64,000 nt of DNA from positions 1-64,000 of the forward strand of contig NZ_PZKE01000008.1 of the NCBI RefSeq assembly GCF_003034965.1, read 5' to 3'. Position 1 is the stretch's first letter, and every line of letters begins with the position of its first letter. This DNA comes from Fuscovulum blasticum DSM 2131 (GTDB lineage Bacteria > Pseudomonadota > Alphaproteobacteria > Rhodobacterales > Rhodobacteraceae). A model generated the notes under the pieces. The model had not been told where the DNA came from and did not search any database. It saw only the letters and a program-made list of their open reading frames with translations. The position numbers and the translations under genes are program-made. Positions 57,322 through 64,000 of this stretch are shown in pieces.

Positions 57322-58383
57322 TCAGGCCGACTGGCCCTGTGCCTGATCCCGCAGCCAGGCCGCATGACGTGTCTCGTATTCGGCCTTCAGGTGCCGGGAC
57401 AGCGGCACCTGAGCGCCCGCCGCGTTTTCAACGGCATAGCGGCCCGGCCCGGTGCGCAGCACGGAGCCGGCTGCCGCAAAGGAAATCCAGTATGACCGAT
57501 GAATCCTCATCCCCATGGTGTCGGGCAGGGCCGAGCAGATGACAGAGATCCGGTCCCGCACCAGAAAGCTGTCGTCCGTCGTGAAGACCCGCAGATAATG
57601 CTCCTGCGCTTCCAGCAAACGGATCTGGCTTGCGTCGAAAAAACGCCCGCCAATCTCGACCGGCGCCCCGCCGGCTGCGGGCGATGGCAGAAAAGCGGCC
57701 GAACGCGCCGCCATCGGCACAACGGATGGCACTTCGGCTTGTGCCGGGTCCGGCGCCAAAGCACCTTGCGGGCTACTCTTCGGATCAAGCACGTCAGCGC
57801 TGCGGGGCGCGTCACCGCTTCTGCTGTGCTTCAGAAGCTGTGCCGCCGTCATGACGTTATATTTTTCAAGCCTGTCCTGATAGAACAGCCGGATGAAAAG
57901 CTGCTCCAGCGCGATGATTGGCGGAAGCAGATGCAAGGCGATGTAAAACACATCCCATGCCGTGCCTTTGAAAGAAGGGTCGATGGTCGCATTTGCAAGG
58001 TGACGCGTGAAGCTTGATGTCAGTGCCGCAATAAAATAGCTGATCGGAGCATACCCCGGCGCCTCCCATACCTGCGATAAAAGAAGGTGCAGCCAGGCCA
58101 CAAGATAGACCACCAGGAAGAAGACAATTCCACAAATGACAGATATTGCAAAGCCGATGTAAAATGATTCAACCCGGCCATAGGGCGGCACAAAAACCAG
58201 TGACACAAGAAGGCTTGCCGGAATTGCGAAAGCAAGAAAGACGCGGGACCGAAACATTTCCTTCAGTACGCTGCCATCCAGAAAATAACTTGGCCCGAAA
58301 GAAAAGATGATCAGTTGTGGCTTCATGCGGTTGGCCTTGTTCTGCAACGGTCTTGACCGCGATGTTATACTTGTGACGGTCAT
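57322..58383 (-). CDS. Membrane-anchored LytTR-domain transcriptional regulator
   Basis: The protein (353 residues from 58383, 334 from the alternative ATG at 58326) has about four membrane helices in its first half (VFLAFAIPASLLVSLVFV, FYIGFAISVICGIVFFLVVY, ISYFIAALTSSF, IALHLLPPIIALEQLFI), a Pro/Ala-rich linker and a C-terminal LytTR DNA-binding domain (RLLEAQEHYLRVFTTDDSFL, GMRIHRSYWIS). It has no receiver domain, so input is probably sensed through the membrane part. The N-terminal half is distinctly less GC-rich than its neighbours. The GTATAC repeats 4 nt beyond 58383 suggest that the real start is 58326. The nearest unlinked targets are the Hint-domain genes. Confidence 0.85.
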   Translation of the reverse strand: MTVTSITSRSRPLQNKANRMKPQLIIFSFGPSYFLDGSVLKEMFRSRVFLAFAIPASLLVSLVFVPPYGRVESFYIGFAISVICGIVFFLVVYLVAWLHLLLSQVWEAPGYAPISYFIAALTSSFTRHLANATIDPSFKGTAWDVFYIALHLLPPIIALEQLFIRLFYQDRLEKYNVMTAAQLLKHSRSGDAPRSADVLDPKSSPQGALAPDPAQAEVPSVVPMAARSAAFLPSPAAGGAPVEIGGRFFDASQIRLLEAQEHYLRVFTTDDSFLVRDRISVICSALPDTMGMRIHRSYWISFAAAGSVLRTGPGRYAVENAAGAQVPLSRHLKAEYETRHAAWLRDQAQGQSA

Positions 58384-59130: not shown

Positions 59131-59612
59131 TTGCGCGGTGCAGGCTGTGACAAAAACGGCTGCTTTGCCATTTTTTTGTGGTATCCTTTAAACACTTTTG
59201 TTGAAGCTTGAATTCTGTCTGACATGCGAAGGCGCTGTCCCGTAAGGGCGGCCATGTATGGGTTCATCCATCCATACACCTGTAATCTCCGCATCCATCA
59301 GATGGCAGCATGGGCAAGCTTCAGGCGTTCCGAGTGCCTGGCTTATGAATGGCGTCTTGGCGGAACCGAATGACAATAGGCACGATGCTACCTGCTTACC
59401 CATGAGAAACACATCAATGACATTCCGAGTGAGCACATTGGTGCGCTGCTGCTGTCAAATTGACTTCGGCACGCCCGTTGTTGACCAGTCTGCGATGCGG
59501 CCGCGAAACCGGTCGTCACTTTCACCTTCGCAATCAACCCTGGTGCACCCTGTCGATTTGGCTGTTTGCCGGCCCTGACAGTTCAAGTTTCACGATCTAC
59601 TGGAGTTTCATG

Positions 59613-62600
59613 ATGGCCACGTTCACCGTTGTTCCCGTCGTAACAAATCCGGCAACGCAGAAGTTGCAAGGTGTGATCAACGTCACCGCGGGTGATACCT
59701 ATATCATTGATCCGACTGTTTCCGTCGGCATTACGTTCAACCCGCCGGCCGGCACGCCCCTGGGGACAACGGTCAGCTACAATATCCAGATCAATGCGGC
59801 CAATGCTTCTGCGGGCACCGCGCAGCGGCTTATTACGCTTGGCGACCAGACAACGGCGAATATCACGATTGCCCCCGGCGTGAATGCCGGGCGCTATGAT
59901 TTCGGCGGCGGCACGGTGGATGGTGCGAATTACACCATCGGGGCAGGGGCCACGACCGGCGATCTGCAACTGGGCGATGGCGGCAACGGCAGCCTGACCA
60001 CGGTGACAAGCTCGGTGACGCTGGGCGACGGGGCCACTGTCGCGGGGCAGATCACGGGCGGGGCGGGGGCTGATACCCTGACGGTCGGCACGAATGTGAC
60101 CGTGACCGAAGCGATCAACCTTGGCGCCGGGGCCGCCAGCGGCACCTTCGGCACCGGATTCTCGGCCCAGTCCTTCGCGGCCAGCGGGGCAGGCGCCAAG
60201 ACGTTCGACTTCAGCAACACCACGACCTTCACGGGAACCGGGGCCAGCGTCAGCATCGCCTCGACCAACGCCCCGGTTTCGGTCGATTTCGATGACAACC
60301 TGTCGACCAACGGCACGATCAGCGTGTCGTCCAGCACCGGCGCGGCCACGCTGGACATCGGGGCCAATCTCAAGACCGGCAACGCCACCCTGCATACGGG
60401 CGGCGCCATCAGCGTCGTCGGCGGCGGCACCGGCAGCGCGAACATGTTGACCATCGGTCTGGATGCGCAGGTCAACGGCGCCATCACGATCAATGGCTCC
60501 GGCGGGACCAACACGCTGACCATCGGCGACAGTTCCGAGGTCTACGGCTTCATCTACGCCAACGGCACCAACTCGGCCGCTACGGTGACCATCGGGGATC
60601 TCAGCACCGTCACGGGCGACATCTACGCAAATTCGGGCGGCACGCTGGCGCTGGGCAACATCGACAACAGCGTGACTGTCGGCGACGGCACGACCACCGG
60701 AAGCATCTTCGTCAACGGGCTTTACAGCGACAACACCGTTTCGGTCGGGCTCGCCTCGACGGTTGGCAACCTTTACTTCGGCACCGATGGCACCGTCAGC
60801 CAGACCGACCCCACCTCGGGGCAGGTGCTGACAATGGCCGACAATTCGACCGCGGGCCTGATCTACCTGACCGCATCGAATTCAACCTTCGACGTGACCT
60901 TCGGCACCGGCGTCACCACGAATGCCATCTACGGCTACGGCTACAACTCGGATTACAACGTCTCGATCCCCGACGATTTCACGGCGAATGGCTATGTGTA
61001 CTTCGGGTCAACCAACAGCACCACCGATGTCACCATCGGCAACAACGCCGTCATCAACACCGGGGCGCTGGACATCAGCGGCAGCGATGTCACGACCCTG
61101 ATCGGTGACGGCCTCTCCGTTCAGTATTTCGCCTCGTTCGGCGATCTGAACGGGGCAACCGATGTGACGATCGGCCAGGGCGCCAACATTGGCGGGGCGC
61201 TCTACGCCAATGGCTCGACCGTCGATTTCACCGCCGGACCGGATTTCGACGTGTCCGGCTATGCCTATCTGAACGACGCGAACGCGACCTACACCATCGA
61301 CATCGGCCCGGGTTCCGACATCGGTGGCGGCTTCTATGCCAACGGTTTCAACTCCGATGTCACGCTGACGACGGGCGACAACTTCATCGTGTCGCTTGAT
61401 GCCTATATCGGCGGAACGGACGGCACCACCACTGTCACCCTTGGCTCTGGGTCGTCGATCGGCACGGTGCTGAACGTCGGCGGGGATACGGTGAACTTCA
61501 CCGCCGGCACCGGCCTGACAACCGGCGGCGCTGTCACCTTCGGCGATGCGGTCTCGCTTTCGACCACGGTCAACCTGACCGGCCCCACGGTGTTCGGCGG
61601 CCTTCTGGATGTGAACGGCGACCAGATCATCTTCAACGGCGGCCCGAACCTTACGGTCAACGGGCCGGCCTATTTCACCAATGACGGCGGCACCTCGACC
61701 ATCGTTCTGGGCGACAACACCACGATCAACGGCCTCGCAGACTTTGCCGCGCCCAATCAGGATGTGTCGCTGACGATCGGCACCAACGTGACGATCGGCA
61801 CCATCTACGGCGACACCACCGGCACCGGCTCGTTCAACATGACGACCGGCGACGATTTCACCTTCGCGAACTTCTACGGTGGCACGACGGACAATGACGA
61901 ACACGTCACCATCGGCAAGAACTGGACGATGACCGGAAGCGGTGTCTATGACGCCGGCACCGGGAACGACACGCTGATCCTGGGCACGACCGCCGACCGC
62001 AGTTCCACGAACTACATCTACGGCGGCGAAAGCGCGAACGACAATGACGTCCTCACCTTCCGTCTGAACGCGGCCGATCAGGCCAGTTTCACCACCGCGG
62101 CGCTGGCGGCCGGCTGGACGCTGAACCCCGATGGCACCTTCAAGACCACGAACGGCGCCGGGGCGCATATCCAGCTTACCTGGCAAGGGCAGGTGATCAA
62201 CTACTGGGAATCGGTGGCCTTCTGCTTTGCGCAGGGCACCGAGATCAGCACCGACGCCGGCCCGGTGAAGGTTGAGGATCTTCGGCCCGGCAGCATGGTT
62301 CTGACCATGGACCGGGGCTATCAGCCCGTTGCCTGGATCGGCGGGCGGCAGCTTTCCGGCGCCGATCTGCAGCGCAAGCCCAACCTGCGGCCAATCCGCA
62401 TTGCGGCCGGCGCGCTGGGCCATGGCCTGCCGACGGCCGATCTGGTGGTGTCGCCGCAGCATCGCGTTCTGGTGCGGTCACGGCTGTCGGAGCGGATGTT
62501 CTCGGACCGTGAGGTTCTGATCGCGGCCAAGCATCTGGTGGGCCTGCCCGGCATCACCGTCGCCGAAGAGATGGACGGCGTGTCCTACTGGCACTTCCTC

Positions 62601-62858
62601 TTCGAACAGCACGAGATCGTCTATTCGAACGGGGCCCCCACCGAAAGCCTGTTCACCGGCCCCGAGGCGCTGAAGGCGCTGACCCCGGACCAGCAGCAGG
62701 AAATCCTGACGCTGTTCCCCGAACTTTCGGAAACCGATGCCGTGCTGAACGGCGACCGTCTGATCCCGGCCCGGACAATTGTTCCGGGCAGGCTGGCCCG
62801 CAGCTTTACGCGGCGGGCGACGAAACGCGGAGCTTCGGACGTGCTGTCCCCGGTGTGA
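59613..62858 (+). CDS. Large beta-repeat protein with C-terminal Hint domain
   Basis: The 1081-residue protein has a Cys-free N-terminal region of about 870 residues made of degenerate Gly/Asp/Thr/Asn-rich units of roughly 25-35 residues (patterns like TVTIGDLSTVTGDIYAN and LTIGDSSEVYGFIYANG), which suggest a right-handed beta-helix. A Hint domain follows, beginning at C871 (CFAQGTEISTDAGPVKVEDL) with the conserved His in SPQHRV (H950). About 70 residues follow the Hint core. No signal peptide is seen; secretion by another route is possible. Hint domains self-cleave in inteins and Hedgehog proteins; there is no C-terminal HN-Cys/Ser splice junction here. Two ATGs are adjacent; 59613 fits GGAG best. 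Confidence 0.85.
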   Translation: MATFTVVPVVTNPATQKLQGVINVTAGDTYIIDPTVSVGITFNPPAGTPLGTTVSYNIQINAANASAGTAQRLITLGDQTTANITIAPGVNAGRYDFGGGTVDGANYTIGAGATTGDLQLGDGGNGSLTTVTSSVTLGDGATVAGQITGGAGADTLTVGTNVTVTEAINLGAGAASGTFGTGFSAQSFAASGAGAKTFDFSNTTTFTGTGASVSIASTNAPVSVDFDDNLSTNGTISVSSSTGAATLDIGANLKTGNATLHTGGAISVVGGGTGSANMLTIGLDAQVNGAITINGSGGTNTLTIGDSSEVYGFIYANGTNSAATVTIGDLSTVTGDIYANSGGTLALGNIDNSVTVGDGTTTGSIFVNGLYSDNTVSVGLASTVGNLYFGTDGTVSQTDPTSGQVLTMADNSTAGLIYLTASNSTFDVTFGTGVTTNAIYGYGYNSDYNVSIPDDFTANGYVYFGSTNSTTDVTIGNNAVINTGALDISGSDVTTLIGDGLSVQYFASFGDLNGATDVTIGQGANIGGALYANGSTVDFTAGPDFDVSGYAYLNDANATYTIDIGPGSDIGGGFYANGFNSDVTLTTGDNFIVSLDAYIGGTDGTTTVTLGSGSSIGTVLNVGGDTVNFTAGTGLTTGGAVTFGDAVSLSTTVNLTGPTVFGGLLDVNGDQIIFNGGPNLTVNGPAYFTNDGGTSTIVLGDNTTINGLADFAAPNQDVSLTIGTNVTIGTIYGDTTGTGSFNMTTGDDFTFANFYGGTTDNDEHVTIGKNWTMTGSGVYDAGTGNDTLILGTTADRSSTNYIYGGESANDNDVLTFRLNAADQASFTTAALAAGWTLNPDGTFKTTNGAGAHIQLTWQGQVINYWESVAFCFAQGTEISTDAGPVKVEDLRPGSMVLTMDRGYQPVAWIGGRQLSGADLQRKPNLRPIRIAAGALGHGLPTADLVVSPQHRVLVRSRLSERMFSDREVLIAAKHLVGLPGITVAEEMDGVSYWHFLFEQHEIVYSNGAPTESLFTGPEALKALTPDQQQEILTLFPELSETDAVLNGDRLIPARTIVPGRLARSFTRRATKRGASDVLSPV

Positions 62859-62927
62859 AATCTGCGGCCGCCGCCCGCGTGGCGGCGGCCACAACTGTAA
62901 AGAGTGCATTGCTGAAAGAGGAAAATC

Positions 62928-64000
62928 ATGGCGTTGACGCCAGCTTATACCAAGGCCTGGGTGCTGAACACGCCCTATGGTGGCACGGTGACATCCCTGA
63001 CGAACGACGCAAGCGGCGTTACCGCTCTGAAGGGCATGGGGACTGTCACCTCAACCTTCGACGTGATGAAATACTACACGGGTCCGCTGGGAACATCCGG
63101 CACGGATTTCCTGCTGGAGAAAGCGCACAGCAGCGCCTTCTTCGGGTCCGGTGCCGATGACTGGGTCTCCTTTGATGACGGCGTCACGCAAAAGACGATT
63201 CAGCAGTATGTCGTGCTGAACGGCGTTACCGTTTCGATCAACGGGGGCGCGCCGATCAGTGTGCAAGTCTATGCCATGATCCTGAACGATGGCACCGTCG
63301 CCATCTCCCTGCCGCCGACCTTTGTCACCGCGCAATCGCTGACAGGCAGCGATGTGCTGGTGTTCAACTTCACCGCGGCGACCGACATCAACACCACATC
63401 GTCCGAGATTGGCATTTCCGTTGTCAACCTTCCCGCGGCCCCCTGCTTTGTCAGGGGCACGCTGATCGAAACCGACCGTGGCCCGGTTGCGATCGAAGAC
63501 CTTCGGCGCGGCGATCTGGTGGAAACGGTGGATGACGGGTTTCAGGAAATCCGCTGGATCGGGTCAAGCCGGCTGAACGAAGCCGATTTCGCCCTGAACC
63601 CCAAGATGCGCCCCATCCGTATCCGGGCCGGCGCGCTGGGCCGCGGGTTGCCGCTGGCCGATGTGCTGGTGTCGCCCCAGCATCGGGTGGTCGTGTCGTC
63701 GAAACTGGCGCGCAAGATGTTCGACGTGGACGAGACGCTGGTCGCCGCCAAGCAGCTTCTGCTGATCCCCGGCGTCGACATCGCGACGGATGTGTCGGAG
63801 GTGGAGTATTTCCATTTCCTGTTTGACCGGCACCAGATCGTTTACGCCGAAGGCGCGCCGATGGAATCGCTCTACACCGGGCCCGAGGCGATCAAATCGG
63901 TGTCCGAAGCCGCGCGTGAGGAAATCTTCAAGCTTTTCCCGGAACTGGCCATGGGGCTGCCGGACCAGTTGCCCGATCCTGCCCGCCTGATTGTGGCCGG
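62928..64000 (+). CDS. Second Hint-domain protein, 3' end outside window
   Basis: The frame from the ATG at 62928 (AGAGGA just upstream) is open to the window end: 357 codons. The first 172 residues are an unrelated passenger (MALTPAYTKAWVLNTPYGG, FDDGVTQKTIQQYVVLNGVT). The Hint domain begins at C173 (CFVRGTLIETDRGPVAIEDL), with His in SPQHRV at H252. The Cys-to-His distance, 79 residues, is the same as in the preceding protein, and the two domains align throughout (FHFLFDRHQIVYAEGAPMES against WHFLFEQHEIVYSNGAPTES). The gene is 69 bp after the first Hint gene. Function unknown. Confidence 0.85.
   Translation, partial: MALTPAYTKAWVLNTPYGGTVTSLTNDASGVTALKGMGTVTSTFDVMKYYTGPLGTSGTDFLLEKAHSSAFFGSGADDWVSFDDGVTQKTIQQYVVLNGVTVSINGGAPISVQVYAMILNDGTVAISLPPTFVTAQSLTGSDVLVFNFTAATDINTTSSEIGISVVNLPAAPCFVRGTLIETDRGPVAIEDLRRGDLVETVDDGFQEIRWIGSSRLNEADFALNPKMRPIRIRAGALGRGLPLADVLVSPQHRVVVSSKLARKMFDVDETLVAAKQLLLIPGVDIATDVSEVEYFHFLFDRHQIVYAEGAPMESLYTGPEAIKSVSEAAREEIFKLFPELAMGLPDQLPDPARLIVA

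Follow-up and report, generated by a model that had tools for sequence, protein, structure and literature searches.

Organization of the gene region

The end of a 64,000-nucleotide stretch of DNA from Fuscovulum blasticum DSM 2131 (positions 1 to 64,000 of contig NZ_PZKE01000008.1, here C8; the whole stretch is referred to as the window) carries two tandem genes on the forward strand, each encoding an N-terminal passenger, a Hint_2 domain, and a short C-terminal tail. Gene 1 (59613-62858, 1081 amino acids) is preceded by a likely ribosome-binding site, GGAG (59602..59605, forward strand, identified by eye); a further ATG is present at 59610. Its passenger (residues 1-870, 59613..62222) is devoid of Cys and contains repeats that, from sequence and model, are read as a beta-solenoid. 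The Hint_2 domain follows at 62223..62660, with the codons of Cys871 and His950 at 62223-62225 and 62460-62462, and a tail of 65 residues plus the stop codon is encoded at 62661..62858. The 69 bases between genes 1 and 2 contain a perfect 10-bp GC inverted repeat with a 5-base loop and without a T-run (62866..62890, no strand assigned) and the sequence AGAGGA (62917..62922, forward strand), the likely ribosome-binding site of gene 2, both identified by eye.

Gene 2 (62928-64061 of contig C8, forward strand, 377 amino acids) extends beyond the window, which ends inside it at position 64000. Its passenger (residues 1-172, 62928..63443) also lacks Cys. According to the Pfam bounds, the Hint_2 domain covers 63441..63881 (Cys173 codon 63444-63446, His252 codon 63681-63683). 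The tail occupies 63882..64000 within the window and continues to 64061 of the contig. About 95 bases further, just beyond the window, lies the convergent gene 3 (C8:64158-65993), in which a Hint domain is combined with a passenger bearing repeats-in-toxin (RTX) motifs.

The Hint_2 domain and its active residues

A preliminary description of the window, based on the nucleotide letters, had proposed homologous Hint domains at the C-termini of genes 1 and 2 with an identical Cys-to-His distance. Both were assigned to Pfam family PF13403 (Hint_2) with E-values of 3e-54 and 5.7e-53, covering profile positions 2-146 and 1-146 of 147, and the distance is 79 residues in both (C871/H950 and C173/H252). 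The Hint_2 model gives no function, and neither the tail nor the exchange of passengers described below is part of it. In the source genome, 27 Hint_2 matches were detected, 26 of them over the cut-off; the Pfam run covered 22 of these 26 proteins and gene 2 as cut by the window. For a wider comparison, 111 Hint domains with their tails were compiled, comprising 25 from the source genome, from which the degenerate copy C12:76841 was left out, and 86 from 79 named loci. These loci were among the best 80 matches of a two-pattern peptide scan and lean toward Paracoccus. They contain 90 Hint open reading frames, four of which scored under 200 bits and were left out, including pieces of a broken gene in L065.

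The first residue of the domain (Cys1) and the block-B His are present in 24 of the 26 source-genome domains, one has Ser1 together with the His, and one has neither residue. In the wider set, Cys1 occurs in 110 of 111 sequences and the SxxH motif in all 111, the His count being biased because one of the two peptide patterns used to find the 79 loci can include SPQHR. The Cys1-to-His distance is 79 in 98 of the 111 domains. Before the 200-bit filter, a strict Cys motif fitted 79 of the 90 reading frames, all with Cys; among the other 11, the eight full ones have Cys by eye, a piece of the broken L065 gene also has Cys, and two miss the start of the domain. Routine loss of the active Cys and His among homologues, named in the preliminary description as an argument against self-processing, was therefore not observed. 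Alternatively, the Hint might have stopped cutting in most copies and act as a stable domain for adhesion or assembly at the C-terminus of secreted proteins. The existence of the degenerate copy in the source genome and of similar short matches across the genus fits such a role, which the retention of the active residues and the constrained residues at the passenger–Hint junction nevertheless make improbable.

The degenerate copy (C12:76841-77203) is a short Hint_2 protein of about 180 amino acids that lacks both Cys1 and the block-B His. Most genomes of the genus have similar short matches that begin at profile positions 3-8, only the source-genome copy having been read; because of this recurrence, a catalytically dead Hint may be kept. 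The Ser1 domain (C6:104255-104662) belongs to a paralogue of 380 amino acids; within the genus, 12 of 13 genomes have matches that share its profile range (2-144). These are perhaps orthologues, unlike the Hints that carry swapped passengers.

In the AlphaFold2 model of gene 2, the Hint domain reached a predicted local distance difference test (pLDDT) of about 95-98 and the tail 81-98. Foldseek recognized a HINT fold with BIL2, the Prp8 intein, and 2lwy as neighbors. The gene 1 model likewise gave a HINT fold and was also near the Hedgehog structure 1at0 (E 0.018). By sequence, no Protein Data Bank chain aligned over more than about 90 of the 206 profile positions; the sole match under E 0.001 was a bacterial intein-like (BIL) domain, over 30 residues.

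The Hint ends in an invariant His, and in a Glu that precedes a nearly invariant Ser, and the sequence continues through this Glu-Ser motif into the tail. A C-terminal His-Asn (block G) was not present at this end, for which reason a splicing intein or type A BIL was rejected. As there is also nothing to splice to, the domain should cleave or transfer rather than splice. With Cys1, block-B His, and no block G, it resembles type B BIL domains as defined in a review (PMC4031507), which reports cleavage at the splice site without splicing where block G is absent. In the related bacterium Ruegeria pomeroyi, the secreted RTX protein YP_168868 has a Hint-fold domain too, a type A BIL. It is internal and ends in His-Asn, whereas the Hint domains of genes 1 and 2 are C-terminal and lack this motif. 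According to PMC2953401, peptides of the intein region were missing from the exoproteome, in line with its removal.

Passengers and their composition

The passengers of genes 1 and 2 differ in length (870 versus 172 amino acids) and were not linked by BLAST at E 1e-3. For the passenger of gene 1, short strands with a period of about 22 residues were predicted, supporting the beta-repeats seen earlier; pLDDT was mostly 85-94 between residues 280 and 640. Foldseek gave no significant fold relatives, and no match to this passenger was found among plasmid records. Structure prediction gave no fold for the gene 2 passenger, with pLDDT below 50 over residues 1-76 and 132-165. RTX repeats (PF00353) were detected by Pfam in gene 3 and in neither gene 1 nor gene 2.

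In the wider set, the 103 passengers of at least 60 residues formed 33 BLAST groups; known passenger domains are RTX repeats, PA14, lamin-tail, and Big_9. Gene starts were set at the first in-frame ATG (source genome) or the first in-frame Met (79 loci), which makes some of the passengers too long and accounts for the seven Cys residues in C17:53327. Acidic residues exceed basic ones (D+E over K+R) in 109 of 110 passengers, the sums being 4907 and 1028, and only 33 Cys residues occur in 34,216 positions, with 93 of the 110 passengers lacking Cys. The Hint domains with tails are balanced (2636 versus 2665) and contain 110 Cys residues beyond Cys1 in 22,543 positions. For comparison, ten other open reading frames of the window, chosen by hand, gave 457 acidic versus 403 basic residues and 35 Cys in 3,956. 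Owing to this contrast, the two parts of the proteins look shaped by different surroundings. A composition poor in basic residues has been reported for Roseobacter RTX exoproteins (PMC3933643).

By eye, neither gene 1 nor gene 2 shows a signal peptide, as the preliminary description had stated. Its suggestion that the passengers are secreted nonetheless agrees with their acidic, nearly Cys-free composition and their RTX relatives, by which they appear to be secreted proteins.

Exchange of passengers on the Hint–tail cassette

At E 0.001, neither passenger was matched in 12 further species of the genus, every one of which possesses Hint_2. The Hint and tail of gene 2 group with three source-genome Hints that bear RTX passengers (Shimodaira–Hasegawa-like approximate likelihood ratio test, SH-aLRT, 97), and those of gene 1 group, less firmly, with gene 3 and two other RTX-bearing ones (SH-aLRT 91). 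A protein on the Fuscovulum blasticum plasmid pRsa has a passenger 58% identical to that of gene 2 over 169 residues. Its Hint and tail are nearest to gene 3 (63.6%), gene 2 ranking seventh (52.4%). Such a mismatch between passenger and Hint would be explained by recombination or gene conversion among Hint copies.

The layout of different passengers on one Hint module, which had been likened to polymorphic secreted systems, was supported as far as the exchange itself is concerned, but the likeness to those systems did not hold. In polymorphic toxin systems, the Hint domain precedes a variable C-terminal toxin, which is followed by an immunity gene. In the genes studied here this layout is reversed, with the variable part N-terminal and the conserved tail behind the Hint; a toxin system was therefore rejected. 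Between genes 1, 2, and 3 there is almost no room for immunity genes, the search for which was confined to these gaps. That the Hint releases a toxin in such a system is very improbable, even though Hint domains and variable modules occur together here as well.

The tail

In genes 1 and 2 the Hint domain is followed by a helical tail of about 60 residues, modeled as short helices. Most of the paralogues in the source genome have a comparable segment of about this length; it is shorter in three and divergent in a few. The Hint and tail of gene 2 (206 residues) matched 238 of 72,556 plasmid records, most of those displayed being named "Hint domain-containing protein". In 40 of these 238 records, taken at even steps, the match reached at least position 193 in 11 of 19 Rhodobacterales rows and ended at 168-169 in the other eight. 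The 13 rhizobial rows had end points between 143 and 175, and the eight from acetic acid bacteria stopped at 143, where the Hint itself ends. Since the tail is matched through only in some of the Rhodobacterales, the full tail looks like a feature of part of this order.

The order of passenger, Hint, and extra C-terminal region recalls the Hedgehog and Hog proteins, and 1at0 is listed by Foldseek for gene 1. By analogy, a specific small nucleophile bound by the tail could resolve the thioester and end up on the C-terminus of the passenger as a surface anchor. The missing block G would suit such a transfer, as would the confinement of the fully matched tail, among the rows shown, to 11 of the 19 Rhodobacterales, with none of the rhizobial or acetic acid bacterial ones. 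Hedgehog and Hog proteins have a Gly before Cys1; this Gly occurs in none of the 111 sequences. Moreover, no match of the tail in sequence or fold was found to the sterol region of Hedgehog, which 1at0 does not include; the tail is unrelated as far as seen, and no acceptor is known. We consider a Hedgehog-like transferase unlikely.

Relation to type I secretion

Among the best 150 of 172 candidates scored in the source genome, fifteen reading frames carried RTX repeats, and 11 of them, gene 3 and ten other Hint genes, end in a Hint domain. The RTX frames without Hint on contigs C7 (whole) and C14 (C-terminus present) have short ordinary C-termini, in contrast to the Hint and tail that terminate genes 1 and 2. 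A further frame, on C10, runs off the contig; from its repeats, it could be the remainder of the C14 gene. The last, on C44, immediately precedes a Hint gene, in a different frame. None of the RTX proteins without Hint in the 79 loci, sought for comparison, passed the motif filter. Genes 1 and 2 lack RTX repeats but share with RTX type I substrates the acidic, basic-poor and Cys-free passenger and the lack of an N-terminal signal visible by eye.

One HlyD gene of the source genome passed the cut-off; it adjoins an ATP-binding cassette (ABC) gene truncated by the end of the contig, on which no Hint_2 match of the genome is located. In a Roseovarius genome, the RTX genes are reported to be scattered and the exporter separate (PMC4511512). 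Among 120 genomes of the family, with the best 10 or 13 candidates scored per genome, Hint_2 was absent from five of the six without PrtD over the cut-off and without HlyD and from 10 of the 114 with either (Fisher p 8.8e-5), a test that is only indicative because the genomes are related.

Proposed processing of the passengers

Taken together, genes 1-3 probably belong to a large modular family that is most likely exported by type I secretion and in which the Hint and tail act as a portable, self-processing cassette by way of an N-S acyl shift. Cys1 would attack the peptide bond between passenger and Cys, assisted by the block-B His, and the resulting thioester would be resolved by water or another nucleophile, parting the passenger from the Hint and tail. 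Recombination or gene conversion between the numerous copies would exchange the passengers on the cassette.

The junction is constrained. Residue -2 before Cys1 is V or I in 65 of 110 sequences, and residue -1 is P in 42 and G in none. The last two passenger residues are hydrophobic, Ala, or Pro in 88 of the 110 (compared with 13% of random cuts), and 70 of these 88 junctions have D or E at -3 to -8 (compared with 60%). As regards a freed C-terminus acting as type I signal, hydrophobic ends are thus strongly and acidic residues mildly enriched, in sequences that are related.

Cleavage might precede export. The Hint would then be a removable cap whose loss gives the passenger a working C-terminus; the freed passenger would resemble the ordinary RTX proteins of the genome, and the tightly folded, Cys-bearing, charge-balanced Hint would never have to cross. 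We lean slightly toward this order, cleavage after export being nearly as likely. In the latter case, the tail, with or without the Hint, would be the type I signal itself: the chain would be exported C-terminus first, and the Hint would fold outside and then free the passenger or attach it to a nucleophile at the surface. Type I secretion signals lie at the C-terminus, where the Hint and tail are located, and these are the only part common to passengers with and without RTX repeats. A tail that is predicted to be folded and is conserved is, however, unlike typical signals; type I export should be impeded by a stable domain at the C-terminus, and the Hint and tail do not share the acidic, Cys-poor composition of the passengers. 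Signal function of the tail is a serious candidate that we hold at less than even strength. On a larger scale, one exporter might serve some two dozen interchangeable passengers in a genome-wide system of C-terminal finishing, in which the cap either cuts itself off before export as a kind of licensing or adds a Hedgehog-like adduct with the help of the tail. We regard this as speculative.

Several observations weigh against self-processing, type I-exported proteins with exchanged passengers. Pro before Cys1 slows thioester formation in inteins, and Pro directly precedes Cys1 in 42 of the 110 sequences. The hydrophobic junction may simply fit the active site of the Hint. The tail sits where a type I signal is expected and so speaks for cleavage after export. 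The export of the gene 1 and 2 proteins is argued from composition and family, because they lack RTX repeats. Ten of the 114 exporter-bearing genomes have no Hint, and in one genome (G036) no PrtD, HlyD, or LssB passed the cut-off despite its 12 Hint_2 matches. With respect to the exchange, the Hint tree requires 18 changes of the RTX label versus 23.5 in shuffles, and the well-supported branches force only three changes. Finally, the support as a whole comes from sequences and models, from which we infer cleavage, its timing, and the export of both proteins.

The literature searched, outside of which most subscription papers and the original BIL papers lay, contained no account of a Hint–tail cassette, swapped passengers, or a tie to type I secretion, nor of the function of any Hint_2 protein, though such proteins are named in many genomes. 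The Hint_2 family and BIL domains as such are known. The cassette, with its roughly 26 occurrences in this genome, may be a widespread means by which exported proteins are finished. Should it cut or modify type I passengers, a well-established export route would gain a new processing step; bacteria would have a counterpart to Hedgehog, and protein cutting a tool that tolerates passengers of widely differing kinds.

Distribution and neighboring genes

Of 120 family genomes, each from a different genus and the source genome among them, 105 contained Hint_2, as judged, like all genome surveys here, from the best places listed. It is present in all 13 genomes of the genus, where each has between 3 and 27 matches, fragments included. 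Of 289 genomes sampled across the class, 14 matched and 10 of these passed the cut-off, four of the 10 coming from the source family. The domain was reported to be over-represented in strongly responding Rhodobacteraceae (PMC12487129). A phage origin was rejected, as none of 50,697 phage records matched the Hint and tail of gene 2.

Plasmid pRsa of Fuscovulum blasticum has five Hint places, some of which adjoin glycosyltransferase and rhamnan-synthesis genes (L120, L125); the setting is perhaps one of surface polysaccharide or biofilm. A Hint_2 protein on pSymB of Sinorhizobium meliloti (L124:3794-4627) begins, as judged by eye, with a twin-arginine-like N-terminus and carries only a very short passenger, which may indicate another export route. 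The Hint gene at C6:123815-124252 (L017:5738-6397), directly upstream of another Hint gene, encodes only 26 residues before the domain, a passenger possibly having been lost or not yet gained. Apparently broken Hint genes, with parts in different frames, are found on contig C44 (L015) and at about 11509-12740 of L065.

Near the Hint genes of the window, a gene for a LytTR regulator is located at 57322-58383. It was rejected as a fixed partner, since a match occurred in only four of the 99 Hint loci searched, that of the window included. One match, of 38% identity, lies at L120:13851-14807 beside a Hint gene of the Fuscovulum plasmid pRsa.

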